Shown: positions 4,288 through 20,301 of the stretch, one piece after another
Layout: each line of letters opens with the position of its first letter
Numbering within the stretch: the stretch's first letter is position 1
DNA from: Methanomethylovorans hollandica DSM 15978
Lineage (GTDB): Archaea > Halobacteriota > Methanosarcinia > Methanosarcinales > Methanosarcinaceae
NCBI RefSeq assembly: GCF_000328665.1
Contig: NC_019977.1
Coordinates: 868,001-932,000, forward strand
DNA: 64,000 nt
Direction of reading: 5' to 3'
The notes under the pieces: generated by a model
The model's input: the letters and a program-made list of their open reading frames with translations, nothing else
Told to the model about the DNA's origin: nothing
The model's database searches: none
Made by a program: the position numbers and the translations under genes

Positions 4288-5073
4288 ATGAAATCTAACC
4301 GAAAATATAATTTATACAGGAACAGTAGTGCTCAGGTGGGCATTGGTACCCTTATCATCTTCATTGCCATGGTACTTGTAGCCGCAGTGGCAGCTGCTGT
4401 GCTCATCCAAACATCTGGTACACTGCAGCAGAAAGCCCAATCCACAGGCAAGGAGGCCACTCAGGAGGTTTCATCCAATCTGATCGTGAAGGGCATAGAC
4501 GGTATCAGGGCCAAGAATTCTACTGCCGATCTGGCAGGCAATATTTCTCTGCTCAAGTTAAAGGTAGGTCTTAATGTTGGTAGCTCCTCGGTGGATGTCA
4601 ACCAGGTGGTCATTTCTATCACTGATGGAACTGGTACGAATAACCTGATCTATGCCAACAATCATAAGACATATGGGTATACCATGAAGGATTTTGATGT
4701 TTCTGCAACTGCAGCTGACAATCTGCATGATCTGCTTACAGGCACACAGGCTGCACCTGGCGCAAATGCGAAATATTACTTCACTGTGGAAAAGATCCGT
4801 GACGAAGATGGGTCTTTCACTCAGGGAAAGCCGGTAATGAATACAGGTGACCTGGCTATCTTTTATGTTTCAACCGTATGTGCAGGAGACACGACCTTTG
4901 ACAAGATTGGTACAACTACTGTAAGTAAGGCCCAGAAAGATTCAGGGCTGGAAGTAGGACCCAGAGCAACTATAAGTATTGTGCTCACGCCTGAATCAGG
5001 TGTAGTGACAAATGCTGATTTCATAACACCTTCTTCCTACGGTACCAAGGAAACGGTTGTTCTGTATCCATAA
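4288..5073 (+). CDS. flaB: Archaellin (flagellin), type B copy 1
   Basis: The 261-aa archaellin follows copy A1 by 31 nt with a GGAG ribosome-binding site. The leader and hydrophobic core are almost identical to the other three copies, while the middle differs (NLIYANNHKTYG, MKDFDVSA) and matches the copy at 7677, so it belongs to a second subtype. The conserved end [21 protein letters not shown] is present. A strong hairpin plus T-run follows directly, so this pair forms its own transcription unit. Having several archaellin subtypes is common where major and minor filament subunits are specialised. Confidence 0.95.
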   Translation: MKSNRKYNLYRNSSAQVGIGTLIIFIAMVLVAAVAAAVLIQTSGTLQQKAQSTGKEATQEVSSNLIVKGIDGIRAKNSTADLAGNISLLKLKVGLNVGSSSVDVNQVVISITDGTGTNNLIYANNHKTYGYTMKDFDVSATAADNLHDLLTGTQAAPGANAKYYFTVEKIRDEDGSFTQGKPVMNTGDLAIFYVSTVCAGDTTFDKIGTTTVSKAQKDSGLEVGPRATISIVLTPESGVVTNADFITPSSYGTKETVVLYP

Positions 5074-5540: not shown

Positions 5541-5903
5541 TCAGGGCATTCTTTCGATAATATCTTCCATACGTTTTGTCTTTTTATAGAAATCAGTGGT
5601 GTCTTTGAGAAAATTGGCAGCTATGATCCCTTTATCAGTGATGATGTATCCTCCTCTTTTAACCTTCTCGACCAACCCCTCAAGCTGAAAGACCGTTTTC
5701 ATTTTGCTTCCAATACTTCCTTTATCTGCAAAACGGTCAGTGTACTCTCTTATATCAGCAAACTCAGTGACTTCCCCTTCATTCTTGTTCAGAACAAGCA
5801 GAATGAGCCTGTACTGGATGTCTCCTGGACCTTGGTTTATACCAAGGGACTGATAGAAATCAGCAGCTTTTTGTTCCATCTCGACATCTATCTCATAAGT
5901 CAT
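5541..5903 (-). CDS. Winged-helix regulator, candidate archaellin regulator
   Basis: The roughly 120-aa protein begins MTYEIDVEMEQKAADFYQSL; the start at 5903 is chosen for the GGAGG ribosome-binding site seven bases upstream, inside the end of the preceding gene. The body DIQYRLILLVLNKNEGEVTE, then a KMKTVFQLEGLVEKVKRGGY segment and ITDKGI, has the helix-turn-helix and beta-wing pattern of archaeal winged-helix (PadR/MarR-like) regulators. It is translationally coupled to a membrane protein and lies between two archaellin pairs. Known archaeal examples (EarA in Methanococcus, ArnR in Sulfolobus) are winged-helix archaellum regulators, so a similar role is reasonable but inferred from position only. 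Confidence 0.65.
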   Translation of the reverse strand: MTYEIDVEMEQKAADFYQSLGINQGPGDIQYRLILLVLNKNEGEVTEFADIREYTDRFADKGSIGSKMKTVFQLEGLVEKVKRGGYIITDKGIIAANFLKDTTDFYKKTKRMEDIIERMP

Positions 5904-6669
5904 TTTCATCCTCCTCTTCTTCTTCATATCTCTCATGCTGGGATTTTTTTATGCCGAGTGTTTTTTGCAAAGTTGAGGGAGGGAAGTAAGCGAGGAATGC
6001 CAGCACGGTACCAATGAGAACAAAGATCCTTGCAGCCATTTGCATAACATCCAGGTTTGTTATCATATCCGTAAGCATAAAATCAAAGACAAAGGAGATT
6101 GACACCAGGGGAAGGGTAGTCCTATATCTCAGGTGGCGGGGCATGCGCTGGAGGAATATCAACAGCATCATTCCCAGCATCATTGCTATGGGAATGACAA
6201 AAAGTCCAACAAGATATATATTAATGGCAATATCACTGTTGATGCTGAACATTGAGGAATATCCGGTGATAGTGGGTCCAATGACACCATTGGAGTAAAG
6301 CAACGCCAGATATGTCGCTCCGAAAAGTATGAACAGGAAAGAAATATAACTACTTCTCTTCTGATTACCTGTTATTACATATAGTATAAAGAACACGAGG
6401 GGAACAGTGACCGTTGAAAAAGGCACTGCTGCAAGGTTATACATGATCAGGTCAAGGGATGGATGACCTGTAAATGCTGCTGCCATGCGAATGGTAGTAG
6501 GCAGATATGTTAAGGCCACCAGTGACCAGAGAATTACAAGAGCCCATAGAGCAGGCTTGCTTTTTTCATTGTGTTTATCCTCACTGCTTGCAAGCACCCA
6601 TGCAAAAGCAAATGAGGAAACAGTTATTGCAAAGCATATTGTTGCATTAAGTATCAATCCTGCTATCAT
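5893..6669 (-). CDS. Polytopic (about seven-helix) membrane protein of unknown function
   Basis: The 258-aa protein starts at 6669, where a GGGGA ribosome-binding site fits better than at the upstream in-frame codon. About seven hydrophobic segments are visible (for example LILNATICFAITVSSFAFAW, ALVILWSLVALTYLPT, YISFLFILFGATYLALL, YLVGLFVIPIAMMLGMMLL), ending in an acidic cytoplasmic tail rich in Glu/Asp (YEEEEEDENDL). No retinal-lysine or kinase domain is recognised. It overlaps the winged-helix gene by 11 nt, suggesting a membrane sensor paired with a DNA-binding protein; that is inference. Confidence 0.7.
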   Translation of the reverse strand: MIAGLILNATICFAITVSSFAFAWVLASSEDKHNEKSKPALWALVILWSLVALTYLPTTIRMAAAFTGHPSLDLIMYNLAAVPFSTVTVPLVFFILYVITGNQKRSSYISFLFILFGATYLALLYSNGVIGPTITGYSSMFSINSDIAINIYLVGLFVIPIAMMLGMMLLIFLQRMPRHLRYRTTLPLVSISFVFDFMLTDMITNLDVMQMAARIFVLIGTVLAFLAYFPPSTLQKTLGIKKSQHERYEEEEEDENDL

Positions 6670-6774
6670 TTTACATCCCCTGTCAGGCATATTATTATAT
6701 AATGTTTTTTATATATATATATATCTATTACGCAAGGGGCTATTTGATGCTTTTTGTTGAGATTCCCCTCCAAA

Positions 6775-6834: not shown

Positions 6835-7647
6835 ATGAAAGCAAACAAAACACTTACCATGAAGAAAGATACCAATGCTCAGGTAGGCATTGGTACACTG
6901 ATCATCTTCATCGCAATGGTGCTCGTTGCAGCTGTGGCAGCAGCAGTGCTCATTCAGACATCAGGTACACTGCAGCAGAAGGCACAGTCAACTGGTAAAC
7001 AGGCAACTCAGGAAGTATCTTCAAATCTCATCGTTAAGAATATTGAAGGTGTGCGTGCAAAGGATAGTGCCGTAGTTCTGTCGTCAACTATCGACCTTTT
7101 AAGGCTGAAAGTTGGTCTGAATGTAGGTAGTCAATCTGTGGACGTAAATCAGGTAGTTATCTCTATTACTGACGGTACCACTGCCAACAATCTCGTGTAC
7201 GCAGCCAATGATAAAACATATGCAACTGTCGGTGCGGCCGATGGGGCAATGGATGGTTTTAGTTCCTCCAGTCCTGCCACGAATCTTCAGAAGTTACTTA
7301 CAGCCAATACTACAGCAAACAGCAATTTTAACAACTCCGACCATTACTTTACAGTAGATAAGATCCGTGATGAAGACGCCTCTTTCTCCCAGTCTAATCC
7401 AGTGATGAACACTGGCGATCTTATAAACGTATACATAGCAACAACTTCATCATCAGCAGCTTCAGCTGGGTATGACTATGTGAGTACCACGGTTACTTCG
7501 GGGGTCCTTAAACAATCCGGCCTTAACCTGGTGCCGAGGTCAGTTGTCAATATCATTCTTACTCCGGAGTCTGGTGTAGTGACAAATGCTGATTTCGTGA
7601 CACCTTCGTCATATGGTGTTAAGGAAACAGTGCAGTTGTATCCATGA
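6835..7647 (+). CDS. flaB: Archaellin (flagellin), type A copy 2
   Basis: The 270-aa archaellin starts at ATG 6835 (AGAGGAT upstream), not at the in-frame TTG six bases earlier. It is the sister of copy A1: the same leader and core, the same [21 protein letters not shown] and [19 protein letters not shown] blocks, and the same end SYGVKE-VQLYP. DNA identity with A1 is clearly lower than protein identity, with many synonymous changes, so the duplication is old and the protein is under constraint. No terminator is seen behind it; the next archaellin starts 29 nt on. Confidence 0.95.
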
Positions 7648-7676: not shown

Positions 7677-8459
7677 ATGGCCAGAGAAAGATCCTCTTTA
7701 AGAGATAATACCAGTGCCCAGATAGGCATTGGTACTCTTATCATTTTCATTGCCATGGTACTGATAGCCGCAGTTGCTGCCTCTGTGCTCATACAAACGT
7801 CCGGTGTGTTACAACAAATGGCACATGCTACCGGAAAGCAGGCTACCCAGGAAGTTTCATCTAATCTGGTCCTCAAAAGTATAGAAGGTATAAGGGCTAA
7901 GAACAGTTCAACCTCCATGGCTCAGAATATCTCTCTCCTTAAAATGAAGGTCGGACTTAATGTTGGCAGTTCTCCTGTCGATCTGAACCAGTTGGTTATT
8001 TCAGTCTCAGACGGCACTAATTATAATGATCTTATTTATGGTAACAACGAAAAATTATATGGGATTCTGATGAGCGATTTTTCCAGCAACTCCAGTGCAG
8101 ATACTAACCTGGAAAAATTGCTTACCTCTACTCAGGCTTCTCCGGGAGACAATGCAGCTTACTTTTTTACTGTGTCCAAGATCCGTGATGAGGACGTATC
8201 CTTTTCGCAAGGCTCTCCTATTATGAATACAGGGGATCTCGCGACGATCTATGTGTCAACAGTTTCCGGTGGAGACCTTGGGTATACGACAATTGGTCCT
8301 ATAGCTACGCACAGTTCTCAGAAGGCTTCAGGTCTGTACATTGGACCAAGAACAACTATAAACCTGGTCTTTACTCCGGAAGCCGGAACAATAACTATTG
8401 CAGAGCTCGTTACTCCCTCTTCCTACGGTATCAAAGAAACAATAAAATTATATCCATAA
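7677..8459 (+). CDS. flaB: Archaellin (flagellin), type B copy 2
   Basis: The 260-aa archaellin is the sister of copy B1 (similar YGNNEKLYG and RDEDVSFSQGSPIMNTGDLA) but the most diverged of the four: the C-terminal block reads PEAGTITIAELVTPSSYG instead of the [11 protein letters not shown] shared by the others. The class III signal sequence [19 protein letters not shown] is intact. It is followed after 35 nt by the secreted-protein gene with no visible terminator, so transcription probably continues into the downstream train. Confidence 0.94.
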   Translation: MARERSSLRDNTSAQIGIGTLIIFIAMVLIAAVAASVLIQTSGVLQQMAHATGKQATQEVSSNLVLKSIEGIRAKNSSTSMAQNISLLKMKVGLNVGSSPVDLNQLVISVSDGTNYNDLIYGNNEKLYGILMSDFSSNSSADTNLEKLLTSTQASPGDNAAYFFTVSKIRDEDVSFSQGSPIMNTGDLATIYVSTVSGGDLGYTTIGPIATHSSQKASGLYIGPRTTINLVFTPEAGTITIAELVTPSSYGIKETIKLYP

Positions 8460-8494: not shown

Positions 8495-9202
8495 TTGAAA
8501 GGATCAATTTTCTTAATTGCATTACTCCTTCTGGTTTCCCATGCCATGGCAGAAGCAGTCTATGAGAATGATGTACTGCTGGAAAAGAACAGTGTAAGTT
8601 TAACTATATTTGAAACATACAATTTAACTGATGCAAGTGAATTCAGAGCATCTCTGGATAGTGATAATGATTCTCAGGTAACGGAACCGGAGGTCTCTTC
8701 TTTTAAAGGATCATATCTTGCATCGAGATCTCCACAGTTCATGGAGTATGTAAAGGTGGATGATGGTAATGTGACCTTGTATATGGATTCCGTCACTATG
8801 AACCTTTACAACGCCACAGGCAAAGTCACCCAAGATCCTCTTTATGTAAGTACAACCATTAATTACGGTCTTACTCCGCAGCTAGGTGCCGATGACCATT
8901 TTATATGGGTCATGGGCCATCCCCTGATAGAAAGAATGCGTATACAGCTTCCCAAGGGTGCAGTTCTTGTTTCCAGCAATGGTCTTGAGAATATGACCAC
9001 ATTGGAAACAGACCCTGTTCTACTGGAAGGTAAGAGTGGAATCCGTAGCTTTATGGCGGATAACAGATCCACCTTTGAATATGCTACAACTGTAGAGTTC
9101 CGTGATCCTTATTTGTATGAGCATGGATATGTTCTGCCTTTTCTGTTAGGCGTAGAATTACTTTTGATCATTCTTGTCCTTCATGTGAGAAGAAAGCGTT
9201 AA
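8495..9202 (+). CDS. Secreted membrane-anchored protein with EF-hand-like loop
   Basis: The 235-aa protein uses a TTG start supported by a strong GGAGGTG ribosome-binding site eight bases upstream. It has an N-terminal signal peptide (FLIALLLLVSHAMA), an extracellular domain, and a C-terminal membrane helix VLPFLLGVELLLIILVLHV followed by RRKR, so the body lies outside the cell. Residues 55-66, DSDNDSQVTEPE, fit the 12-residue calcium loop of EF hands or dockerins. No family was recognised. Its place directly behind archaellin B2 suggests a role at the cell surface near the archaellum, which is inference. Confidence 0.7.
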   Translation: MKGSIFLIALLLLVSHAMAEAVYENDVLLEKNSVSLTIFETYNLTDASEFRASLDSDNDSQVTEPEVSSFKGSYLASRSPQFMEYVKVDDGNVTLYMDSVTMNLYNATGKVTQDPLYVSTTINYGLTPQLGADDHFIWVMGHPLIERMRIQLPKGAVLVSSNGLENMTTLETDPVLLEGKSGIRSFMADNRSTFEYATTVEFRDPYLYEHGYVLPFLLGVELLLIILVLHVRRKR

Positions 9203-9226
9203 ATAATATATTTGCTTTATTATAAT

Positions 9227-10183
9227 ATGAGTTTAATGAGATCTCCAAACTTATTCCTCATATTGGTCCTTTTCATTTTTTCCATATGCGGAAGTGGCTG
9301 TTCAAGCCAGGATCCTTCAGGAACAGTGAACACTACAGTAATTGAATTTCTGGAAGCTGTTAATGCCGGCAATAAAGATCTTGCTTTCAGTATGTATCAA
9401 GGCAAGGATTTTCTGGTCCCTGCCAGCATAGAGATGTCCTTCAAGAACAAGAAATTCTCTCCAGGTGGTCTTCAAGAAGTGGTGATCACTTCAGAGGGGC
9501 ATACTGACAATGTTGCGGTTGCTACGGCGGAATGTACAGTGGCAAAACTCGATGATGATGGTAACGAGATCGAAAGAACTCTTCTTCCTGTATACTTCAA
9601 GCTTCAGGACACAGAAATTGGATGGATCATAATCAGAGTCACTTTCTCTGCTCCCCTTGAACTCTCTGAAGATGGTCTTGTCAGCATTGAGGTTCCAAAG
9701 ACTCCTATTGATCCTATCACAGAGAACGCTGTACCTATAAGTATATTTTCGGTAATGCTTTTCGGTACTGGTATATATCTCAACCAGAAGGAAAAACAAA
9801 AACACAATAATAGTAGCAGGACTGTGGATACCAGCAATGCTGCTTCCATACCCAAGGAATCTCTTGTTCAGTTCATCAGGATCGTTCCTTCACAACAAGT
9901 TGTGGCGGGCGGGAAGACAACTATTGGTGTATGGGTAAAGAATTTCTCTCAGCAGCCATACGAGAAATTCGCTGTAAAAGCCAGATTTCCTAATACTGTG
10001 GATATCAAAGAGCTCTCTCTTTTCTTTGGTTCCATAGCTGCTGGTCAGACAGTGAAGCAAAGCTGGACATTTGTGCCCAAGATGCAAGGATGGCTTGGGG
10101 TGGAAGAGCCCACTATTGTGTTCGAGTATCTGGGTACTAAATATGCCGGAACTTTAGATACGGTATGGGTCCCGGTTCAATAA
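9227..10183 (+). CDS. Lipoprotein/membrane protein with Ig-like C-terminal domain
   Basis: About 318 aa; the start is uncertain between 9227 and 9236 because no clear ribosome-binding site is seen. It begins with a signal sequence ending in a Cys-containing lipobox-like site (SICGSGCSS). The next ~120 residues (NTTVIEFLEAVNAGNKDLAF and so on) resemble NTF2-like extracytoplasmic DUF4878-type domains. A second hydrophobic stretch (VPISIFSVMLFGTGIYL) is followed by a Lys-rich linker and a beta-rich domain (VWVKNFSQQPYEKFAVKA, FGSIAAGQTVKQSWTF) like Ig-fold or CARDB domains. Function unknown. Confidence 0.65.
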   Translation: MSLMRSPNLFLILVLFIFSICGSGCSSQDPSGTVNTTVIEFLEAVNAGNKDLAFSMYQGKDFLVPASIEMSFKNKKFSPGGLQEVVITSEGHTDNVAVATAECTVAKLDDDGNEIERTLLPVYFKLQDTEIGWIIIRVTFSAPLELSEDGLVSIEVPKTPIDPITENAVPISIFSVMLFGTGIYLNQKEKQKHNNSSRTVDTSNAASIPKESLVQFIRIVPSQQVVAGGKTTIGVWVKNFSQQPYEKFAVKARFPNTVDIKELSLFFGSIAAGQTVKQSWTFVPKMQGWLGVEEPTIVFEYLGTKYAGTLDTVWVPVQ

Positions 10184-10204: not shown

Positions 10205-12115
10205 ATGATCAAGGAAGATGGAACTGGCGCTCTGGAAAAAGGATATGATGCAAAGGACGCTATGTCAAAATTTAACAAGCTGATCGCATTACGTTTTAAC
10301 GATAGCTCAGGAAATATCTTCAAAGATCAGGATGACATCTCTCTTATGTCTGTTGTGGAAGAGGTCATTGCCTCACCAGAAAAAGGAAGTACAGAGGATA
10401 CTGTAGTTTGTGCTGATCCCAACAATAATGCTGATTCATCTGCAAATGATGCTGTGAGCTATCAACAGGAGCAACGATCATCTGTTGTGACTATGGGAAC
10501 AGATCATGGGCAGGAATGGTATAATAAACTAAACGAATTGGCTTCCACCAGTTTTGAGGGAGTGTCTTATGAGTCATGTGCAATAAAGCTGGAAGATCCT
10601 AAAAATACAAGTACAATTGTTCGTGAGCCAGCTGGACAATCAGTGATCGATCAAAAATTGAATGCAATATTGAAAAAGAACGAAGATGCAATAAAGTCTA
10701 TTCCGGATAAGGAACAAGAAAGTGCCGTTTTTGTCCAAAATGGGAAAGGAAAAGCAGCATCATTTCCGGATCGAGAAAAACAAACACAAACCTCAGATCA
10801 GATCACAAAGGGCATTACCAGGGATGTGGGTGACAAGCCTCTCGTAACCGAGGATATTGTCAGCATTATGGATAAGCTGGATTCAATTGAATCCGAGATG
10901 AAGAAGAAAGAGCTTTCACGGGCTGAAACTATGCGCATGCCAGCGGCTGAAAAGCATATTCCTCGGCAGCAAATGAATGGGAATATGAAACAATCTTCCT
11001 TTGAGGCTCAGTTCAAAAAAGCTCATGGAGTTAAAAATGATCTGCCTGCAAAAGTGGCTGTGTTGTACTCCGAAGCTCACGTTGCACATTCACCTAAAAA
11101 CACCAGTGTTCAGGACTTGGAACGCCCCGAGCGTCTTACGAGGGCTATGGATTATCTGCAACGCAGTGGTGTTTTTGGTGAACGATGTGATCTTATCACT
11201 GAAAAATATCCTGCTTCAGAAGAAGACCTTTTACTGGTCCATTCAAATGATTATATCAGGTTCGTCAGATCATACTCTGCTTCAGGTGGGGGTTTTCTGG
11301 GTGACAGCACTTACATGACTTCCGAGACCTTCGAAGTTGCTCGACTTGCTGTGGGTTCGGCCATAAAGGCCGGCGAACTTGTGCTGTCAGGGCAATACGC
11401 CGCAGCCATGGTGATGATACGACCTCCTGGTCACCATGCGAGTGTTGATAAATACAGAGGATTTTGTATTTTTAATAATGTGGCTGTTCTGGCTCGTTAT
11501 CTGCAGAAGAAAAAAGGTCTGTCCAAAATAATGATCATTGACTGGGACGCCCATGCAGGTGATGGCACCATGGAGATATTCTACAATGATCCCACTGTAA
11601 TGTTTGTATCCCTGCATCGTGACCCATATGATTTCTATCCACGCAGAGGTTTCAGTTCCCAGATAGGAGAAGGGCCGGGTTTGGGTTACACTGTCAACGT
11701 GGAAATACCTGTGGGAGCAGGAGACGAAGAATATGCTTTTGCTTTTGACGAATTGGTGATCCCTCTTTTGCATAACTTCTCACCGGATTTTGTAATATGC
11801 AGCTGTGGGTTCGATGCCTATTACAAGGAACAGCACATAAAGCTGAATCTTACTTCTGCTGGCTATCACATGATGACACAGAAGATCATGTCTGCCATAA
11901 ATGGAAACTTTGTGCTCGTAATGGAAGGTGGTTATCATAAGTTCAATGGCCATCTTACGCATGTGGTCATCAATTCGCTGCTTGACCTCCCGAATCCTAT
12001 AGACGATATACTTAAAACTACTGAATATGAAAGCAATCAGCAGAATATGATCCTTAAAGAGACAGAGAAAAATATCTCCTATGTTAAGAATAAATTAGCA
12101 TTCAAGGACCGCTAA
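10205..12115 (+). CDS. Histone-deacetylase-family enzyme with long disordered N-terminus
   Basis: Of the 636 aa, roughly residues 1-280 are low-complexity, charged and probably disordered; residues ~282-600 form an arginase-fold HDAC/acetoin-utilisation domain. Active-site elements are all visible: RPPGHHAS (~405, the catalytic His pair), IDWDAHAGDGT (~445, zinc ligands Asp and His), GFDA (~534, third zinc ligand) and MEGGY (~573, catalytic Tyr). It should therefore be an active zinc-dependent deacetylase of acetyl-lysine or a small acetyl-amine. The family is usually 300-450 aa, so the N-terminal extension is unusual. It lies in a train with two GNAT proteins and signalling genes. Confidence 0.9.
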   Translation: MIKEDGTGALEKGYDAKDAMSKFNKLIALRFNDSSGNIFKDQDDISLMSVVEEVIASPEKGSTEDTVVCADPNNNADSSANDAVSYQQEQRSSVVTMGTDHGQEWYNKLNELASTSFEGVSYESCAIKLEDPKNTSTIVREPAGQSVIDQKLNAILKKNEDAIKSIPDKEQESAVFVQNGKGKAASFPDREKQTQTSDQITKGITRDVGDKPLVTEDIVSIMDKLDSIESEMKKKELSRAETMRMPAAEKHIPRQQMNGNMKQSSFEAQFKKAHGVKNDLPAKVAVLYSEAHVAHSPKNTSVQDLERPERLTRAMDYLQRSGVFGERCDLITEKYPASEEDLLLVHSNDYIRFVRSYSASGGGFLGDSTYMTSETFEVARLAVGSAIKAGELVLSGQYAAAMVMIRPPGHHASVDKYRGFCIFNNVAVLARYLQKKKGLSKIMIIDWDAHAGDGTMEIFYNDPTVMFVSLHRDPYDFYPRRGFSSQIGEGPGLGYTVNVEIPVGAGDEEYAFAFDELVIPLLHNFSPDFVICSCGFDAYYKEQHIKLNLTSAGYHMMTQKIMSAINGNFVLVMEGGYHKFNGHLTHVVINSLLDLPNPIDDILKTTEYESNQQNMILKETEKNISYVKNKLAFKDR

Positions 12116-12124
12116 AGAGGAAGA

Positions 12125-12256
12125 ATGCGCAGCACAGGTGTGATATTCAATACTAATCATGAGCTCCATGATTATATGCTGAAAGGTGGTTATCATGATG
12201 ATCTTGGCCTCCCGGCAAAGTTCTTGCAGGTGCATGTTCGGGGAGAAGCTGAATGA
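12125..12256 (+). CDS. Small 43-aa protein, translationally coupled to GNAT gene
   Basis: A short frame begins at ATG 12125 with an AGAGG ribosome-binding site overlapping the end of the deacetylase gene, and its TGA overlaps the next start (ATGA at 12253-12256). The product (MRSTGVIFNTNHELHDYMLK, then GGYHDDLGLPAKFLQVHVRG and EAE) has no recognised family and could also be a leader peptide. The perfect coupling on both sides is the argument that it is translated. Confidence 0.5.
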   Translation: MRSTGVIFNTNHELHDYMLKGGYHDDLGLPAKFLQVHVRGEAE

Positions 12257-13230
12257 ACTTAAGAACCTGTGTCATATTACTGGGAATTTTAACATGTAGA
12301 TTTGGTGTTCATATGATAGAACTTGCTTATTATAATAGTGGATTAAGGTTCTTTAAGCTGAAATATCCATATGAGCTGGATAAGCTGAAAATTGGCAGAT
12401 TTGATTATTTCAATAAACATCTGGGTATGAACGACTACATGGGTAACTTTAGCAGTTGGCTCAAAAGACAATCAGTGACCCTTATAGTTGGAATAGATAA
12501 TGTTACCATCGTGGGTTGGGTAATGGCAGAGAGATGGAAGCAAAATGCTAAGGATGGCCATCCTGTCTATGTATTGAGGGCTATCGAGGTTTCTCCGTCT
12601 ATTGCGCGTACAGGTATTGGTAGAACTCTATTCGTACTAAGCTTCAAAGCCTGTCCCGGACATATGCTGACCAAGCCTGTGAACTCTGTAGCAAAGACTT
12701 TTTTTCTTTCCCTGGGTTTCCAGGAACCCGACAGAAATTGTCCAGTTGATCTGAGTAGTTATCCTGGTTATCTTTTTCTTCCTGAAGCTTACGAATTGCA
12801 GAGCATTCCCCATGAACTTATAATGATCAAAGGGGGACTTGTGGAGTGCCAGAATGAAACTTCTGTGAAGGATATTCTCCGCCCGGCCTTCACTTTAAAT
12901 TCTCTTCAGGATGCTGAAGTGACTCCTGAAAAAGAAGATACGCTCATCAGAAGCATTGGTCTGAATAACATAGCCAAAGCTGAACCAAAAGCAGAAACAG
13001 ATTGCAATTGTGCCGGATACTCCAAACTCTCTTCCATTCCTGTGATCGCAGATGTTGCAGACCAAGCTGATTCTCAGAGCAGAGAGTTCTTAAAAGAACA
13101 CAAAATGATGACCTCTTGCTGTTGTGGTGAGTATATGACCCATAAATATGTAGTATCAGGTAGCTCCCGGGGTTTTCTTTTTGTATGCACTTCGTGCGGA
13201 AAAGAACGATATTTTCTTAAAAATCAATGA
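12253..13230 (+). CDS. GNAT-type N-acetyltransferase with C-terminal zinc ribbon
   Basis: In this 325-aa protein residues ~60-165 form a GNAT fold: a beta strand TLIVGIDNVTIVGWVMAE, then AIEVSPSIARTGIGRTLF with the acetyl-CoA pyrophosphate-binding R-x-x-G-x-G (~118-124), and NSVAKTFFLSLGF at the end. After a variable linker, residues ~287-316 hold CCCGEY...CTSCG, a zinc-ribbon-like Cys cluster. A GGGAG ribosome-binding site supports ATG 12253; an in-frame ATG at 12313 is possible and would remove a hydrophobic stretch. It is a paralogue of the GNAT at 18661. Substrate unknown; a protein lysine or N-terminus is plausible because a deacetylase is encoded next door. Confidence 0.75.
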   Translation: MNLRTCVILLGILTCRFGVHMIELAYYNSGLRFFKLKYPYELDKLKIGRFDYFNKHLGMNDYMGNFSSWLKRQSVTLIVGIDNVTIVGWVMAERWKQNAKDGHPVYVLRAIEVSPSIARTGIGRTLFVLSFKACPGHMLTKPVNSVAKTFFLSLGFQEPDRNCPVDLSSYPGYLFLPEAYELQSIPHELIMIKGGLVECQNETSVKDILRPAFTLNSLQDAEVTPEKEDTLIRSIGLNNIAKAEPKAETDCNCAGYSKLSSIPVIADVADQADSQSREFLKEHKMMTSCCCGEYMTHKYVVSGSSRGFLFVCTSCGKERYFLKNQ

Positions 13231-13322
13231 TATTCTTATTTTTCCATTCATCATCTTCTTTCATGATCTTAAATGGTTGCATTCACCTGCAAACTCATAG
13301 AAACTGTTTTATTTGTTTAATT

Positions 13323-13333
13323 CTATATATTAT
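13323..13333 (+). promoter_or_regulatory. TATA-box promoter before the CheF-like gene
   Basis: The sequence CTATATATTAT lies 37-47 nt upstream of ATG 13370, in the only sizeable gap (139 nt) of the downstream train, so a second promoter may drive the CheF/V4R/KaiC group separately from the archaellin-HDAC part. Confidence 0.45.
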
Positions 13334-13369
13334 CTACTTATACTAAAAACAATTAAGGATAGGTAAAAC

Positions 13370-13957
13370 ATGGCTCAGGAGCAGGGTATTGCAAAAGTGG
13401 ATCTTAATTATATCTTCAAAGCTGTCATTATGGGAACTTCTCTCTACTCTGATAACTGGGAGAAAGGAGTACTTTATCTCACTAATCTAAATCTGTGGTT
13501 CTCTGAAGGTAAAGGCTGGTTCACTATTCCACTTAAGAACATAACAATGGTGGGTCGGGAGGTTCCTAATACCATACGTATGAAAGCACAGCGTGCCATA
13601 GGTACAACCCAAGTACTGATCATCGACTATCTTCAGGCTTCCAGTATAAGTGCTGATTCATATGCATCATCAGTGGCACTATTAGGTGGTAACGAAGTAG
13701 TCGTTAACACCTTGAAAGCTTATCTGCAGCCGATGTGTGGAACTCCTCCCAGGGCTCAGTCCCTTTCAGACATTGATAAGAAACTGCTTTACATGCTTTA
13801 CACAGGTATCAATGATATGCTTAAACTTTCCTTCCTCATAGGAACGGATGCAGAAACCCTTGCCGGGAGTTTCAAAAATCTCAGGGATCAGGGACTCTGT
13901 GATACAATGGGAAAACTGACACAAGAAGGTATGACAAGGATCAAAGAGCTGATGTAA
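13370..13957 (+). CDS. CheF-like (DUF439) chemotaxis-archaellum adaptor
   Basis: The 195-aa protein has an N-terminal beta-rich part (GVLYLTNLNLWFSEGKGWFT, then IPLKNITMVGREV) resembling the PH/GRAM-like fold of CheF, and a C-terminal winged helix (LSDIDKKLLYMLYTGINDML, then LRDQGLCDTMGKLTQEG). CheF proteins (DUF439) link the CheY/CheC/CheD chemotaxis proteins to the archaellum motor in Halobacterium. This copy is shorter than haloarchaeal CheF (~280 aa) and is assigned from pattern only. It heads a run of signalling genes beside archaellins, which agrees with such a role. Confidence 0.6.
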   Translation: MAQEQGIAKVDLNYIFKAVIMGTSLYSDNWEKGVLYLTNLNLWFSEGKGWFTIPLKNITMVGREVPNTIRMKAQRAIGTTQVLIIDYLQASSISADSYASSVALLGGNEVVVNTLKAYLQPMCGTPPRAQSLSDIDKKLLYMLYTGINDMLKLSFLIGTDAETLAGSFKNLRDQGLCDTMGKLTQEGMTRIKELM

Positions 13958-14000
13958 TGGTCTTGTTTCTGACAATTTTTACTGGCAGGGGGTCTAGGAT

Positions 14001-14984
14001 ATGAGTTATATACCCCCAGGATTGCCCCCTTTTATGACCTCACAGGCAGGTGGTCCTCCACCCATGGCTTCAGGTGGCAGTTTTGCTCAGTCTCTTGGTG
14101 CTTTTGGTACCATGCTAAAGATACAGGAAACGATCAGCACCAGATTCCCAAAATCCAAGGTACCATGGAAGGATACCCGGATCTTTCTGCGTGCACATAC
14201 CATTGAATCGATCAGGTCCACTCCTTTGTATGGTTTTATGATGTATTTGTTCAAAGAAGTGGGTCTGGGAGACATGCAACTCGTAGGATATGCGCCAATG
14301 CATTATGTGTTCGCAGTTCCTGGCTGTCCTGTTTGTAGCATATATCCTGCTCTTCACGATCAGAAAGTATGCGTAGCTACGACCGATGCCTTACACAGGT
14401 TCTTCAAAGAGGATCTAGAGTTGGAATGCATGGTCGAGGAGACAGAATGTGCGAAAGACAGTGGAGCGGTTTGCAAGTTCAAAATATCATTGCAGCCCAT
14501 TTCTGCTTATCAGATCCTCCTTGATGATAATGACAAATTGATCCTCTCCGGGAAAAGACCTCAGGCTATAGAACAGCCTGAACTTGTCAGCAGGGTAGAG
14601 ATTCTTACCATCTATAAACTTCTTGATCGAGGCAAACTTTCTGATATCGGTGAAGCTTACATGCAGTTTGCAGGCAGTATGCCGGTAAAAGAAAAAATAT
14701 TCGATCCACCATGGAAGACAGCCGAGGAGCTCAAATCCATAATTTCTAAACATGGTGCCTTTGGTGCCGCTTTTGGGGAAATGGCTGCTAAAGTTCAGTC
14801 TGTACAGCCTTCCGCTACAAAGATGCCTCCAACTCCATCTGTACCGTCTACATCGTCTGTTTTGCCATCATCGTCCGTTCCTCCTGTGCCATCGATCCAG
14901 GAGGAGGTATCGAAGATCAAAGATGAAGCAAAGAATGCAGGAAGCTTTGCTGAGCTCATAGCAAAGATGAAAAAACAAAACTGA
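14001..14984 (+). CDS. V4R-domain sensor-like protein
   Basis: The 327-aa protein begins with a Pro/Gly-rich tail, then residues ~60-200 look like a V4R (4-vinyl reductase-like) small-molecule-binding domain: TPLYGFMMYLFKEVGLGDMQ, CPVCSIYPALHD, and VEETECAKDSGAVCKFKI with the conserved Cys pattern. A Pro/Ser-rich linker (~270-295) leads to a short C-terminal helix (EEVSKIKDEAKNAGSFAELI). V4R domains bind hydrophobic ligands or metal centres and act as sensors in archaeal and bacterial regulators. The linker-plus-helix tail looks like a docking peptide. Ligand and partner are unknown. Confidence 0.6.
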   Translation: MSYIPPGLPPFMTSQAGGPPPMASGGSFAQSLGAFGTMLKIQETISTRFPKSKVPWKDTRIFLRAHTIESIRSTPLYGFMMYLFKEVGLGDMQLVGYAPMHYVFAVPGCPVCSIYPALHDQKVCVATTDALHRFFKEDLELECMVEETECAKDSGAVCKFKISLQPISAYQILLDDNDKLILSGKRPQAIEQPELVSRVEILTIYKLLDRGKLSDIGEAYMQFAGSMPVKEKIFDPPWKTAEELKSIISKHGAFGAAFGEMAAKVQSVQPSATKMPPTPSVPSTSSVLPSSSVPPVPSIQEEVSKIKDEAKNAGSFAELIAKMKKQN

Positions 14985-14993
14985 GGATTCAAA

Positions 14994-15335
14994 ATGGTTC
15001 GCGATTCACTAAATCTTAAATGTGACCTGATCTCCCGCTTTACCGGCGAGATGGTACGTGTCATCACCGGCAGTTCTCATTATAGAGGAGAATGCCTGAT
15101 GGTAGATATACGATCAAATGATATCTTTCTCAAAGATGTCGTACGTAAGGTAGATTCCGGCTGGGCCAAAGTAACTGACCTCATGTTTATAGGTGGGCCT
15201 TCCGTTGAGGTCATTTATGTTGAATTGGGTTATCCGTTTGAGTTGAACGAATCGCTGATCCTCTCTGTGGAGAACGGCCAGATAAGTCATAGCTCTGATA
15301 TGGACGATGATCATGATTTGGAGGGACTGTTATGA
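14994..15335 (+). CDS. Sm/LSm-like fold protein
   Basis: The 113-aa protein starts with a TGAGGA ribosome-binding site. Residues ~14-47 (RFTGEMVRVITGSSHYRGEC, then LMVDIRSNDIFLKDV) fit the Sm1 motif pattern (G..V.V..g..Y.G.L...D...N..L.d), and LMFIGGPSVEVIYV resembles Sm2 (IrG..I..I). A long acidic tail follows (SDMDDDHDLEG). It is distinct from canonical archaeal SmAP proteins. Its last codons overlap the KaiC start by 4 nt, so the two are likely co-translated. An RNA-binding or purely structural ring role is possible; this is a fold guess from sequence pattern. Confidence 0.5.
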   Translation: MVRDSLNLKCDLISRFTGEMVRVITGSSHYRGECLMVDIRSNDIFLKDVVRKVDSGWAKVTDLMFIGGPSVEVIYVELGYPFELNESLILSVENGQISHSSDMDDDHDLEGLL

Positions 15336-16411
15336 GCGAAGAGGTTAGGATCCCTACAGGCATATTGGGCCTGGACAGGGTGATAGAAGGCGGTGTGCGC
15401 GATAATACCACATTGCTAGTTGTGGGCTCAAGCGGTACTGGTAAATCTACTTTTGCAATGCAGTATCTTGCTTATGGGCTTGAACATGGGGAGAATGCTC
15501 TTTATGTCAGCATGGAAGAACCGGCAGAACAGATCCTCAGGGAAGCCCGTATGCTGGGTTTCAATTTAGATAGATACTATAACAAAGAACTTTTCTTCTT
15601 CCACTCCAAGGGAAAGGATTTTGTCAAGCTGGTCGACGAACAGTTGCCAGCTCTTGTGGAGGCTAATAAGGACTATGCTGTAAAGACACGGGTGGTCATT
15701 GACCCCCTTACTCCCCTTATCTGGGCCATTCAGGATAAGCAGGAACAGCGAGATATCATCACCAAGCTGTTCTATACATTGAAGCAGCTTGGCCCAGTGC
15801 TTATCACGACCGAAGAACATGCATCTCCGGGAGAAACGGTAGGTGAGGATGTGCTCATCCCTATCTATATGTCCGATGGCGCTGTTCATCTTTCCTACAG
15901 GCCTATTGGCGGCGCTTTTAACCGGGCTCTTGAGATCATAAAAATGCGTGCTACAAGGCACGGGGAAGAAGTCTACCCGTATATATTTGTCCGTGGAATA
16001 GGTGTTGTCGTCAGAACCACTCCTCTTATTTCAGCTGAAGATGCAAATAAATACGATGATCTATTCGACAAAGCGATAAGAACGGCAGGTGATCTCGGTG
16101 CTTCTGAAAGCCTGCTTGAACGTATAGAATATGTGAAGAAGAACTGGGCATATTCCTTCTCGCCCAAGGAAACTCTCCAGATATTCTTTGAATCCCAGGG
16201 GCTTACCGGTTCCATTCGAAAAGAGGATGTTGAAAGACGGAAACAGGAAGCTCAGCATATTGCCGAGCATGCAAGTGAGCAGTCTGCTTTCCTTGCAGAT
16301 GTTGAAAAGACACTTGTTGGTCCAGAACAGACATCCTGTTTTACAAAACAGAAATCTGAAGGTCTTATTGATATCGAGGAGCTTAAGGAACTTGAACAGC
16401 TTGTGAAATAA
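15332..16411 (+). CDS. KaiC/RAD55-family RecA-like ATPase
   Basis: The 359-aa protein has a single KaiC-type RecA domain: IPTGILGLDRVIEGG, Walker A GSSGTGKST (residues 32-40), the YVSMEEPAEQ segment and Walker B-like TRVVIDPLTPL, followed by a C-terminal helical extension unique to this protein. KaiC-like ATPases in archaea have been proposed as signal-transduction hubs linked to motility and chemotaxis. It is not ArlH: it lacks the archaellum-operon context and carries the C-terminal extension. It is translationally coupled with the Sm-like gene and followed by a roadblock-like protein, a common partner of archaeal small signalling ATPases. Confidence 0.85.
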   Translation: MSEEVRIPTGILGLDRVIEGGVRDNTTLLVVGSSGTGKSTFAMQYLAYGLEHGENALYVSMEEPAEQILREARMLGFNLDRYYNKELFFFHSKGKDFVKLVDEQLPALVEANKDYAVKTRVVIDPLTPLIWAIQDKQEQRDIITKLFYTLKQLGPVLITTEEHASPGETVGEDVLIPIYMSDGAVHLSYRPIGGAFNRALEIIKMRATRHGEEVYPYIFVRGIGVVVRTTPLISAEDANKYDDLFDKAIRTAGDLGASESLLERIEYVKKNWAYSFSPKETLQIFFESQGLTGSIRKEDVERRKQEAQHIAEHASEQSAFLADVEKTLVGPEQTSCFTKQKSEGLIDIEELKELEQLVK

Positions 16412-16431
16412 GCATATCTGATGTGGTGCCG

Positions 16432-17202
16432 ATGGCAGTGAAAAAAACAAAAGAGGATCTTGAGGACGTATCTCTGCTAAAGTTTGCACTGGTATCCCAG
16501 TTGAAGAGGACCTACGAAACAAGCGATGTGGATATATTGCTGTTTGCGGGAGCAGATGGAAAGATATATGCTTCGTATATCCCAGACAGTATTGGCCCTA
16601 AGATATTCGAACTGACAAATCTCATTACCAGCAACTTATTGCATATAAATCAGCAACTCTCCATGGGTTTGCAGCAATCAGTGATCGAATATGATTTCGG
16701 TACTGTAATTTTCTCATCTGTGGGAAGAGGCGCACTGTTGATCTCATTGTTCACCACCAAAGTGGACCTTTCTCAGAACATGCGAAAAATAGAGATCACA
16801 AGGGAAGTCATGCAGCATCTTTTCGAGCAGCGGCCGATGACAAAGGATCAGCTCTCAACATACCCCGCAGATGTTTCCCGGGAACTGAGGGAACTTGCAA
16901 AGTGTGTGTTCAATGAAATGTACACACAATCTTCTGAATATAAAAAGAATATGGAGATACTTACAGATATCAAAAAGAAGATAACAGGTGTCATGGGACG
17001 CGGAGAGGTTGATCAGGTATTGGCCATGGCCTTTAATGAAATTGCTTCTTCTCCAAAATGGATGACAGAAAAACTCTGGCTCCTTTTACTGGAACTGGTT
17101 ATTAATGACCAGATACGTCCTCTTCATGGTGATTATATTGCTGATGTTTGTATGGCCGAGTGGATGCCTGATATCAAACGTAAGCTTGAGTCTTTTGTAT
17201 GA
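16432..17202 (+). CDS. Roadblock/LC7-like regulatory protein
   Basis: The ~256-aa protein (start at ATG 16432; an upstream GTG is possible) has an N-terminal ~120 residues with roadblock/LC7 features: VDILLFAGADGKIYASYIPD, then IEYDFGTVIFSSVGRGALLI and a C-terminal helix region. A helical domain follows (~130-256). Roadblock proteins modulate small GTPases and ATPases and often occur beside KaiC-like ATPases. Its TGA overlaps the next ATG (ATGA). Confidence 0.6.
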   Translation: MAVKKTKEDLEDVSLLKFALVSQLKRTYETSDVDILLFAGADGKIYASYIPDSIGPKIFELTNLITSNLLHINQQLSMGLQQSVIEYDFGTVIFSSVGRGALLISLFTTKVDLSQNMRKIEITREVMQHLFEQRPMTKDQLSTYPADVSRELRELAKCVFNEMYTQSSEYKKNMEILTDIKKKITGVMGRGEVDQVLAMAFNEIASSPKWMTEKLWLLLLELVINDQIRPLHGDYIADVCMAEWMPDIKRKLESFV

Positions 17203-18644
17203 AAAACGGATGTGGAAGTATGGTGAAAGTCACTGATCTGAAAAACAAGCAGGAAGAAAGTTCATGTTGTATCGGTTCACACGATGATACTGGCACTGGG
17301 TGCCAGCCTGATAACGGAATGTCAGTTACAGATATTCTGCTCCCATCCCTTTCATCAGTACAGGCAGATGTATCAGAGACAACTGATGGTTGCAATTTCT
17401 CTGAAAAGGTTGTTGAAAATACATCTGGAGACAGATCAACGATCATTTATGATGATACAGCTTTTCAGCTTATTCAGCAAAAACTTGCTTATTTTGAAGT
17501 CATGTTCTCTGAAGTACAGCTCAAGATCGAAGAGGGCCTTTTGCAGAATTCTGGTTCTTTAAATGCTTTGAAAGATGAGATGTCCTCTCTTGCTTCAAAT
17601 AAGGAATTAGCTAAATTGAGGAAAGAATTCGATTCATTACACAAAAAACTAAGTAGAGTGGTAAAGGAAGAAGACACCTTCAGCAGTCAGTCCCTAAATG
17701 CTTCCAAAATCCCCCCGGATGTGCTCCAGATTACCTATTCAAAAACCTTGAATGATCTTTACAGAGCAATATTGAATATCTATGGTGACAGTGAAGCAGA
17801 AGCGATCGTTAATTCTATCAGGGACAAAGTCCGAGGGTTCTGTGCAGGTGTAGATTTTTTCCGGTTCGAAGAGGGTACCTTTGTTGTAAAGGAGCTTTCA
17901 GATGCAATACAGTCCAGGCTGGTTTCCACTAAGCAGATACATGGTACTTATATAGAGATATTTAAAAGAATGGCAGAATACGCTCCAAATTATGAATCCC
18001 AGGATTTCAGATCGTTTGTGGAAACAGGCAGCAGGGAATATTCAGTTGAGAAAATAGCCGAACATAATCGTCGTCTTAAGGACTTGGAATGTCTTGTAAA
18101 CAAATACTTGCAGGAGTTAAACAATGTTTCTGAGAACATGGGATTTATGGCACAGTTACAGAACCAGCAGCTTGAGGAGATAAAAGCCAAATCAGAGGAT
18201 ATTATCAATTTAAAGGACCAGATATCAAGCCTTTCGCATGCTGTAAATTTACATACGCGTCTTTTCAAGAAACTCAATAACAATTTGGAAAATATACACT
18301 CTCAGCTAGAATTAATAGAGTCTGGTTCTGATAACAAAGTGGTGGCACAGAATGTTCTGTCGATCTCTTCTATAATTTCTCCGGCTGTACCCTCACAGGC
18401 CGAGCTTGCAGCTCTGGCTGCATCTTTGAATGATCTGAGGGAACAAACATCACTGATGGTGTCAGAGCTGTATTCACGTGTAGATTCGGTTTTCTCAGAC
18501 GTGCATGGTACTGAAAGCGTTTCAAAAGAAGTGGCTTTATTACAAGAACAGCTTCAGAAGCTACGTTCAGACATACAGGAAGATGTGATGTATATAGATC
18601 TGGGTGACATTGAAGACTTTAATATTAATGAAGATGAAGAATAA
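17199..18644 (+). CDS. Coiled-coil protein of unknown function
   Basis: The 481-aa protein begins with a Cys-containing, low-complexity segment of ~80 residues, has predicted coiled coils at ~95-150 and ~285-395 (heptad-rich stretches such as LQNQQLEEIKAKSEDIINLK), and a globular middle part (~165-285, SKTLNDLYRAILNIYGDSEA onward) that was not recognised. The tail is acidic (DLGDIEDFNINEDEE). It is not a recognisable ArlC/D/E protein. Translational coupling to the roadblock gene suggests a scaffold of the same complex; inference. Confidence 0.65.
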   Translation: MKNGCGSMVKVTDLKNKQEESSCCIGSHDDTGTGCQPDNGMSVTDILLPSLSSVQADVSETTDGCNFSEKVVENTSGDRSTIIYDDTAFQLIQQKLAYFEVMFSEVQLKIEEGLLQNSGSLNALKDEMSSLASNKELAKLRKEFDSLHKKLSRVVKEEDTFSSQSLNASKIPPDVLQITYSKTLNDLYRAILNIYGDSEAEAIVNSIRDKVRGFCAGVDFFRFEEGTFVVKELSDAIQSRLVSTKQIHGTYIEIFKRMAEYAPNYESQDFRSFVETGSREYSVEKIAEHNRRLKDLECLVNKYLQELNNVSENMGFMAQLQNQQLEEIKAKSEDIINLKDQISSLSHAVNLHTRLFKKLNNNLENIHSQLELIESGSDNKVVAQNVLSISSIISPAVPSQAELAALAASLNDLREQTSLMVSELYSRVDSVFSDVHGTESVSKEVALLQEQLQKLRSDIQEDVMYIDLGDIEDFNINEDEE

Positions 18645-18660
18645 CTTATGGAGATACTGG

Positions 18661-19527
18661 ATGAGACTTTATCTTCGGGATCGGTCACTTCGCAGAGAAA
18701 AGGAAGATACCTGTACTACGGTGCTTGCAAAAAATAGAGAGCGCTCCATTACAACATATACATGGGATAGTATAATGCAGGGAATAGAGAAAATTCATCA
18801 GGCCGGAGATATCTCTTATGCTCTTTTCGTATCTTCAGAGGCAGTTGATTATCTTTATATAGAGATAGGAACTGCTGACCAGGAGGGTTTTAGTTATTTC
18901 CATCAGAAATTTGGGATGCCCTATAAATTCCTGCTCAAGAAATCCATTGAATCAGGCCATTTCCTGTTCGTGTCCATATCAGGAAAAGATAAACTCATAG
19001 GATTTGCAAGATTTGAGAAACTGGAAGAGCACATTGATAAAGAGATCAAGGGCAAAATGAATGTCGTACAACCTTCTTTATTCCTCTTGCGTAGTATGGA
19101 GGTTCATTCTTCTTTCCGCAACTGCGGAATTGGCAGGGTCTTATTCTCGACAGCTGTCTATTATCTTCAGGGTAATGTTCTCACAGTTCCAGATAATAAG
19201 GAAGCTGCAAACTTCTTCAAAAAAAAGCTTGGTTTCACTGAAATCACAGACACTGTTGGAATTTACAAACAAAAGTATGAAGGGCATTTGATATTGCCAT
19301 ATCCCAAAGCTGTTACTTTATGGCATGAGATAGCAAGCAAATATCCAAGGATCTTATATCCTGAGTTGATAGACCTCTATGAATCATTAAAATTTCGTCA
19401 TAACATGGGTAAGGCAATACCCTGTAATGATATTTACAGGTTTGAGAACTTGCTTGCGCAGTGTAATGGTATGCTAGCCAATGTAATGGAAAATGATATG
19501 CACCGTATGCTCATTGAATTGCGCTGA
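18661..19527 (+). CDS. GNAT-type N-acetyltransferase, paralogue of the one at 12253
   Basis: About 288 aa with the start placed at ATG 18661, which has GGAG seven bases upstream; in-frame codons further 5' would overlap the coiled-coil gene. The GNAT core has SMEVHSSFRNCGIGRVLF (R-x-x-G-x-G at ~153-159) and NKEAANFFKKKLGF. Pattern and order match the GNAT at 12253: a YF-x-K/QK-LGM/FGM block before the core and a Y-x-G-x-L-x-LP block after it; the zinc ribbon is missing here. Last gene of the train. Substrate unknown. Confidence 0.7.
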   Translation: MRLYLRDRSLRREKEDTCTTVLAKNRERSITTYTWDSIMQGIEKIHQAGDISYALFVSSEAVDYLYIEIGTADQEGFSYFHQKFGMPYKFLLKKSIESGHFLFVSISGKDKLIGFARFEKLEEHIDKEIKGKMNVVQPSLFLLRSMEVHSSFRNCGIGRVLFSTAVYYLQGNVLTVPDNKEAANFFKKKLGFTEITDTVGIYKQKYEGHLILPYPKAVTLWHEIASKYPRILYPELIDLYESLKFRHNMGKAIPCNDIYRFENLLAQCNGMLANVMENDMHRMLIELR

Positions 19528-19934: not shown

Positions 19935-20078
19935 ATGTCAAAATTCCTAAAGAGAAATAACGAAAGAAAAGGCGAAAAGAAAAATGAGGAATTGGAATCA
20001 AAATTAATACAAGATAACCTCTCTGAGCTCAAAGAAGAGCTGGTAGAACTTCCAGGCGGTGAAGACTTCGAGGAGTGA
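19935..20078 (+). CDS. Small charged 47-aa protein
   Basis: The start at ATG 19935 follows a strong GAGGTGG ribosome-binding site. The product is highly charged and helical (KRNNERKGEKKNEELESKLI then LKEELVELPGGEDFEE) with no known domain. Its end overlaps the beginning of the ubiquitin-like frame by 20 nt, so the two are probably co-expressed. Function unknown. Confidence 0.55.
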   Translation: MSKFLKRNNERKGEKKNEELESKLIQDNLSELKEELVELPGGEDFEE

Positions 20079-20301
20079 GCACATATCTTCTACGGTATCT
20101 CTTCGTATATCTGTGGAACCGTCAGAAGAACCGCCAAAAACCATGGTATTTCTAAGCGGAACGAAATACGAAGATGTGCTCAGGGAACTCAGGATCAACC
20201 AGGAAACAGTACTTCTGTTTAAGGATGGGGAACTAGTCCCATCAGATGGTGTTGCCAGTCCTGGCAACTTATCCATCATAAAAATAACTTCAAAAGGATA
20301 A
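20059..20301 (+). CDS. ThiS/MoaD/SAMP-like beta-grasp protein
   Basis: The ~80-aa protein has the beta-grasp order: a first strand SSTVSLRISVE, a second strand KTMVFLSGTKYEDVLRELRI, then NQETVLLFKDGELVPSDG and a last strand LSIIKITSKG. This closely follows ThiS/MoaD/archaeal ubiquitin-like small modifiers (pattern YEDVLRELGINPETVLVF-DG). Those proteins normally end in Gly-Gly, which is adenylated; here the end is Ser-Lys-Gly with a single Gly. The GTG at 20059 is the only upstream start giving a full first strand; a GAGGAG site at 20069-20074 lacks a standard start codon at the right distance, so the 5' end is uncertain. Confidence 0.65.
   Translation: MKTSRSEHISSTVSLRISVEPSEEPPKTMVFLSGTKYEDVLRELRINQETVLLFKDGELVPSDGVASPGNLSIIKITSKG

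Follow-up and report, generated by a model that had tools for sequence, protein, structure and literature searches.

A stretch of 64,000 nucleotides from Methanomethylovorans hollandica DSM 15978 (the window, G000:C2:868001-932000, from a genome of 2,714,013 bases in two contigs) contains two pairs of archaellin genes and, downstream of the second pair, a cassette of nine plus-strand genes. In order, the cassette encodes a zinc deacetylase (HDAC1), an acetyltransferase (GNAT1), a protein related to the chemotaxis adaptor CheF (CheF-like), a V4R-domain protein, an Sm-like protein, a KaiC-like ATPase, a roadblock protein, a coiled-coil protein and a second acetyltransferase (GNAT2); all features are collected in Table 1. 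The nine open reading frames lie where the initial annotation had placed them, and its domain reading holds: HDAC, KaiC and GNAT2 match their Pfam families clearly, and CheF, Sm and roadblock are backed by profile or structure searches. The claimed paralogy of the two GNATs was borne out (hhalign E 6.5e-23), but both starts had to be corrected. Comparison with relatives places the conserved start of GNAT1 at ATG 12313, not 12253, and that of GNAT2 at about 18775, not 18604, the latter frame overlapping the coiled-coil gene out of frame. The genes do form the tight train described, yet it is broken by two wide gaps (12116-12312 and 13231-13369) and not by a single one of 139 nucleotides. The second gap holds a block conserved in the sister species, with CTATATATT about 50 nucleotides before the CheF-like start, and a similar AT-rich TATA block lies upstream of CheF-like in Methanolobus. 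This conserved promoter-like block suggests that the locus is probably divided into two transcription units, one from the archaellins to GNAT1 and one from CheF-like to GNAT2. By eye, no convincing upstream motif common to the archaellin and CheF-like genes was found beyond TATA-like AT-rich blocks. As a separate observation, one relative (G060, L105:5173-6411) carries an opposite-strand gene for a 412-residue membrane protein, inserted after GNAT1 and before CheF-like, where the two putative units would meet.

The initial annotation had proposed a candidate undescribed signalling module beside archaellins with a KaiC-like ATPase as its hub, and had held that a neighbourhood not conserved in relatives would speak against it. 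In fact, the order archaellin–archaellin–p235–p323 followed by HDAC–GNAT1–CheF-like–V4R–Sm–KaiC–roadblock–coiled-coil–GNAT2 is the same in five genera, and this conserved neighbourhood supports the proposal of a module, now seen to be co-conserved, with KaiC as its probable hub. A KaiC orthologue (E below 1e-30) was found in 38 of 112 Methanosarcinaceae genomes, representing 5 of 14 genera, namely Methanomethylovorans, Methanolobus, Methanohalobium, Methanosalsum and a fifth genus; the carriers are methylotrophic methanogens. HDAC1 occurs in the same genomes as KaiC, usually with a tandem HDAC2, and elsewhere only generic HDACs (37-42%) were found. The roadblock protein was detected in 27 of 393 genomes sampled from the phylum, all of them Methanosarcinaceae. 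A conserved order over five genera means that the clustering is not due to chance; furthermore, the cassette proteins retain 51-96% identity over these genera, the cassette is gained or lost as a unit, and its genes stay clustered after separation from the archaellins. An accidental gathering of unrelated neighbours is hardly credible on this record and was rejected as already refuted by the conservation. The separation is seen in Methanosalsum natronophilum, in which one contig carries the archaellins, p235, p323, CheF-like and Sm, and another contig carries HDAC, GNAT1, V4R, KaiC, roadblock and coiled-coil. This split locus indicates that it is the KaiC hub, not the archaellins, to which the deacetylase and GNAT1 belong.

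No archaellum motor genes are present in the window, as had been noted, but an intact motor operon lies elsewhere in the same genome (G000:C2, about 463.8-470.2 kb), about 400 kb away. It encodes an ArlC/DE fusion and ArlF, ArlG, ArlH, ArlI and ArlJ. The genome also has a che operon with CheY, CheB, CheA, several CheC, CheR and CheD, and CheW was found in the genome as well. Among 50 genomes with type-1 ArlH as the sole archaellum, strong CheW (best E below 1e-30, the weak CheW matches of G055 and G110 being scored as absent) and the module were both present in 37 and both absent in 13, without exception (Fisher 2.8e-12, uncorrected for ancestry); CheA/CheW taken together gave the same 37/37 and 13/13 pattern. 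The module is thereby associated with the chemotaxis system, not with assembly of the filament. The clearest case is G055, a genome placed inside Methanolobus with support 0.972. Its locus runs from the archaellins, p235 and p323 into the small open reading frame and the SAMP gene that border the module in the window, so that exactly the nine cassette genes are missing; chemotaxis genes were lost along with them, strong CheW being absent, and the archaellins and the motor are kept. In g14, the gene after p323 is a KaiC on the reverse strand, a relative of the KaiC flanking the module in Methanolobus; archaellins, p323 and ArlH are kept without the module there, and archaellins, p323 and motor likewise in g7. 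The suggestion that the module controls archaellum assembly fails on the persistence of archaellins, p323 and ArlH in module-less G055 and g14, and on the hub block lying off the archaellin contig in M. natronophilum. The same observations make very improbable the related alternative of the initial annotation, that archaellins or assembly factors are themselves reversibly acetylated; the cassette does adjoin archaellins in nearly all loci, but archaellins, p323 and motor remain in the module-less g14 and g7, together with p235 in G055, and the HDAC-to-coiled-coil block of M. natronophilum has parted from the archaellins.

Full-length CheF was found in 17 genomes, none of which carries the module, and no true CheF over the Pfam threshold was found in the M. 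hollandica genome. In solved CheF, two PH-like domains come before a C-terminal domain, and the latter is enough by itself to bind phosphorylated CheY (CheY-P; PMC9126983). The two PH-like domains are proposed to contact ArlCDE. In the comparison of profiles, the CheF-like protein matched CheF with a probability of 96.9 (hhalign E 1.8e-10, 156 columns), colinear over CheF 96-258, and an unrelated negative control scored 0.2. A whole-genome search with a Methanosarcina CheF profile returned a single match, the CheF-like protein of the module (E 1.1e-8). Its match to Pfam CheF-arch (PF04283; 0.0016, 18.7 bits) lies under the curated cut-off of 25 bits. The alignment of the C-terminal domain with 7ovp spans 247-332 and covers the last helix and the LTxEG...KL end, though at a weak E of 0.036; true CheF needs this part to bind CheY-P (PMC9126983). 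The AlphaFold model has a mean confidence (pLDDT) of 59.5, too low to judge the PH fold. Judged by these profiles, the protein is a true CheF homologue minus one PH-like domain. Like CheF (PF04283; 7ovp, 7od9; PMC9126983), it appears to retain the second PH-like domain and the entire C-terminal domain; unlike CheF, it has 195 instead of about 266 residues, its first PH-like domain is missing, and it is encoded in a KaiC/HDAC/GNAT cassette instead of with che genes. As a side observation, many Methanosarcinaceae (G061, G062, G060, G063 and others), including genomes without the module, encode a second family of proteins, about 365-430 residues long, whose CheF-like domain gave an E of about 1e-20.

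Taken together, the reading towards which we lean, with modest assurance, is that the nine genes HDAC1-GNAT2 constitute a heritable cassette which, in Methanosarcinaceae, takes over from the absent CheF and links CheA/CheW/CheY with the type-1 archaellum. Such a cassette would be a candidate answer to the question of how CheA/CheY and the archaellum are linked in archaea that have both and lack CheF. It would also offer a natural system for asking whether HDAC and GNAT enzymes regulate archaeal motility, and the distribution complementary to CheF and the clean loss of the cassette in one Methanolobus make the reading directly testable. Several observations weigh against it. M. hollandica is described as non-motile. 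The 50/50 concordance is uncorrected for shared ancestry and includes one clearly independent co-loss (G055), with g14 as a likely second. One complete genome (G065) has CheW and the rest of the module but lacks the CheF-like gene; in a 73%-complete metagenome-assembled genome (G109), a short contig encodes CheF-like and V4R, and CheW was not detected in this genome; and the Methanosalsum loci yielded no GNAT2. The domain apparently missing from the CheF-like protein belongs to the PH-like pair proposed as the ArlCDE contact. No substrate of the HDAC or the GNATs was found. Finally, a fusion of a degenerate KaiC with a response-regulator receiver lies close to where the motor operon begins (L057:5959-7062; G000:C2 about 461.5-462.6 kb), and this fusion could be the true receiver of the Che signal.

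A mechanism was proposed for the coupling cassette in which CheF-like would receive CheY-P and dock at ArlCDE. The KaiC ATPase, together with the MglB-like roadblock, Sm-like, V4R and coiled-coil proteins, would form a hub that gates or positions the CheF-like adaptor. In the KaiC-like protein, the Walker A motif GSSGTGKST and the Glu pair of MEEP are invariant in the alignment; the protein falls below the cut-offs of all NCBIfam KaiC and ArlH models and hence has no named equivalog. The V4R match (PF02830) is below its curated cut-off, and the roadblock, Sm-like and p323 proteins had no Pfam match in the search of the window's proteins. Pfam matches of the coiled-coil protein were dismissed as coiled-coil noise; the protein is long and variable, and its C-terminal winged-helix-like end is found in Methanolobus and absent in Methanomethylovorans. 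The roadblock protein is the best conserved of the module (84% mean column identity). Its predicted model (pLDDT 81) has MglB polarity proteins as top Foldseek matches, with a template-modelling score normalised to the target of 0.72. It resembles the MglB roadblock of Myxococcus and Thermus in fold but has an extra conserved helical domain. These matches, the long and variable coiled-coil protein and the effect of KaiC-like proteins on haloarchaeal motility and cell shape (CirA, PMC13286277) could also be read as a polarity module, in which KaiC, roadblock and coiled-coil would bring archaella, chemoreceptor arrays or both to one cell pole and acetylation would be a secondary regulatory layer. 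This is quite improbable, as genomes with type-1 archaella and no Che system do without the module, which is therefore not needed for placing the motor itself, and as the cassette has no MglA-type GTPase partner.

In the coupling cassette, GNAT1 and GNAT2 with HDAC1, and ancestrally also HDAC2, would set the sensitivity of the adaptor by reversible acetylation of the hub, the adaptor or CheY, and these enzymes may read the acetyl-CoA status. This acetylation is the weakest step of the mechanism. Every intact copy of HDAC1 has RPPGHH, DWDAH, GFD and EGGYH, which supply the His-His dyad, the zinc ligands (DxH and D) and the catalytic Tyr. HDAC2 keeps the catalytic motifs except for D-to-N at the first Asp of DWDAH. 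Read by eye, without formal alignment, the position of the Glu gatekeeper of HDAC10-type polyamine deacetylases may be His in the window's HDAC1. Most relatives have an intact tandem HDAC2 where the window has a relic at 12116-12309, in which the first 23 codons (96% identity to HDAC2 of a sister species) are joined directly to C-terminal EGGYH/NELK pieces by an internal deletion; against HDAC2 of G070 the two parts gave E-values of 1.6e-14 and 3.5e-11 by tblastn and of 2e-27 and 3e-21 by blastn. G067 has a separately decayed copy. A recent insertion of the HDAC was rejected, the HDAC being ancestral and the second one lost from the window genome. In GNAT2 the first Arg and both Gly of RxxGIG are invariant in the alignment; GNAT1 lacks the first R/Q of (R/Q)xxGx(G/A) and has GxG in nearly all copies. 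Between species of the genus, the ratio of nonsynonymous to synonymous substitution rates was 0.10-0.11 for the HDAC1 catalytic domain, 0.36-0.64 for its poorly conserved N-terminal extension, 0.15-0.21 for GNAT1, 0.14-0.19 for GNAT2 and 0.03-0.08 for CheF-like, KaiC and roadblock (CheF-like itself 0.03-0.06). By these alignments and ratios, the HDAC and both GNATs are under purifying selection with their active sites kept.

The two enzyme types might instead act on a small molecule, such as an acetyl-polyamine, the osmolyte N-epsilon-acetyl-beta-lysine or a precursor of the archaellin glycan, whose level V4R would sense and KaiC relay, with no protein acetylation involved. V4R domains bind ligands in known relatives, and GNATs and HDAC-fold amidohydrolases often work on metabolites. 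Furthermore, the solved relatives of HDAC1 include HDAC10 and acetylpolyamine amidohydrolases, and neither GNAT1 nor GNAT2 has a specific match to any solved protein acetyltransferase. Profile searches gave no solved relative of GNAT1 or of the V4R protein. The nearest solved relatives of HDAC1, however, are of the HDAC6, HDAC15 and HDAH types and not polyamine enzymes. Two HDACs and two paralogous GNATs alongside signalling proteins would be unusual for a metabolic pair, and the cassette contains no transporter or pathway genes, so that this alternative seems rather unlikely. For protein acetylation, a precedent in chemotaxis is given by E. coli, in which CobB deacetylates CheY and CheY acetylation is under its control (PMC2883070). 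As there, the acetylation state would tune the chemotaxis output; CobB, however, is a sirtuin without a dedicated gene cassette, and here the deacetylase is a zinc HDAC with a putative substrate. The fullest form of the coupling reading, in which a truncated CheF relative in a KaiC/roadblock hub replaces CheF while dedicated lysine acetyltransferases and HDAC-type deacetylases adjust its gain in response to acetyl-CoA, would amount to a previously undescribed acetylation-controlled motor switch; it is offered tentatively, as a possibility held with considerable doubt.

Parts of such a system have been touched on before. Makarova et al. 2016 (PMC4858521) drew attention to KaiC families in the vicinity of archaellum and type IV pilus loci, and a survey of archaeal two-component systems from 2018 (PMC5847659) notes KaiC-receiver fusions for these genera. 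With its KaiC-family ATPase and predicted signalling partners next to archaellin genes, the locus resembles the KaiC-like signalling hubs of archaea (Makarova et al. 2017, cited in PMC5847659). It differs from the KaiC work in PMC4858521 and PMC5847659 in that the passages searched in these papers mention neither a deacetylase/acetyltransferase pair nor a CheF substitute. KaiC-like CirA is known to affect haloarchaeal motility (PMC13286277). A literature search, outside which lay the 2017 KaiC hub paper where parts may figure, found no paper describing the nine-gene locus or a CheF substitute, and the nine-gene coupling unit is probably undescribed.

Table 1. Features of the locus, with coordinates in the window
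Feature	Coordinates	Strand	Basis or remark
Archaellin, pair 1 first copy (context)	3450..4253	+	Open reading frame; 82% to ArlB_b
Archaellin, pair 1 second copy (context)	4288..5073	+	PF01917 8.3e-32
Winged-helix-like 131-residue protein (context)	5541..5936	-	Kept beside type-1 archaellin loci with or without module
Multi-helix membrane protein (context)	5893..6690	-	Kept beside type-1 archaellin loci; no Pfam match
Archaellin, pair 2 first copy	6835..7647	+	PF01917 7.8e-31
Archaellin, pair 2 second copy	7677..8459	+	PF01917 9.4e-29
p235, exported single-pass protein	8495..9202	+	Follows archaellins, not module; present in module-less G055
p323, lipoprotein (conserved SGC), C-terminal beta-sandwich-like region	9212..10183	+	Follows archaellins, not module; present in module-less G055 and g14
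HDAC1, class-II-type zinc deacetylase	10205..12115	+	PF00850 1.9e-87; catalytic domain ~11030-12112
HDAC2 relic	12116..12309	+	tblastn and blastn to HDAC2 of G070
GNAT1, acetyltransferase, C-terminal CxC/CxxC zinc-ribbon-like tail	12313..13230	+	PF00583 2.5e-4; alignment
Promoter-like block upstream of CheF-like	13231..13369	+	GAAA...TTTTATT...CTATATATT, conserved in Methanomethylovorans
CheF-like, predicted one PH-like domain and CheF-type C-terminal domain	13370..13957	+	hhalign to CheF; CheF profile
V4R-domain protein, conserved Cys residues, proline-rich N-terminus	14001..14984	+	PF02830 3e-6; alignment
Sm-like protein	14994..15335	+	SmD3 8.6e-4 by profile
Single-domain KaiC-like ATPase, conserved C-terminal extension	15332..16411	+	PF06745 1.7e-45; circadian KaiC 8.5e-43
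Roadblock/MglB-fold protein, helical C-terminal domain	16423..17202	+	9jue 2.7e-4; Foldseek MglB E 1.3e-5
Coiled-coil protein, conserved ~110-residue core	17199..18644	+	Alignment
GNAT2, acetyltransferase, intact RxxGIG acetyl-CoA motif	18775..19527	+	PF00583 9.6e-9; alignment
SAMP2-like modifier, right flank of cassette	20059..20301	+	PF21965 1.7e-8; directly after p323 region in module-less G055

Two minor observations concern the surroundings of the archaellin and che genes. The divergent minus-strand pair at 5541-6690, of the winged-helix-like and the membrane protein, belongs to no Pfam family and may be an archaellin regulator. At the end of the che operon (L108:12883-14125), two adjacent, paralogous-looking proteins of about 205 residues are encoded, for which no Pfam match was obtained.

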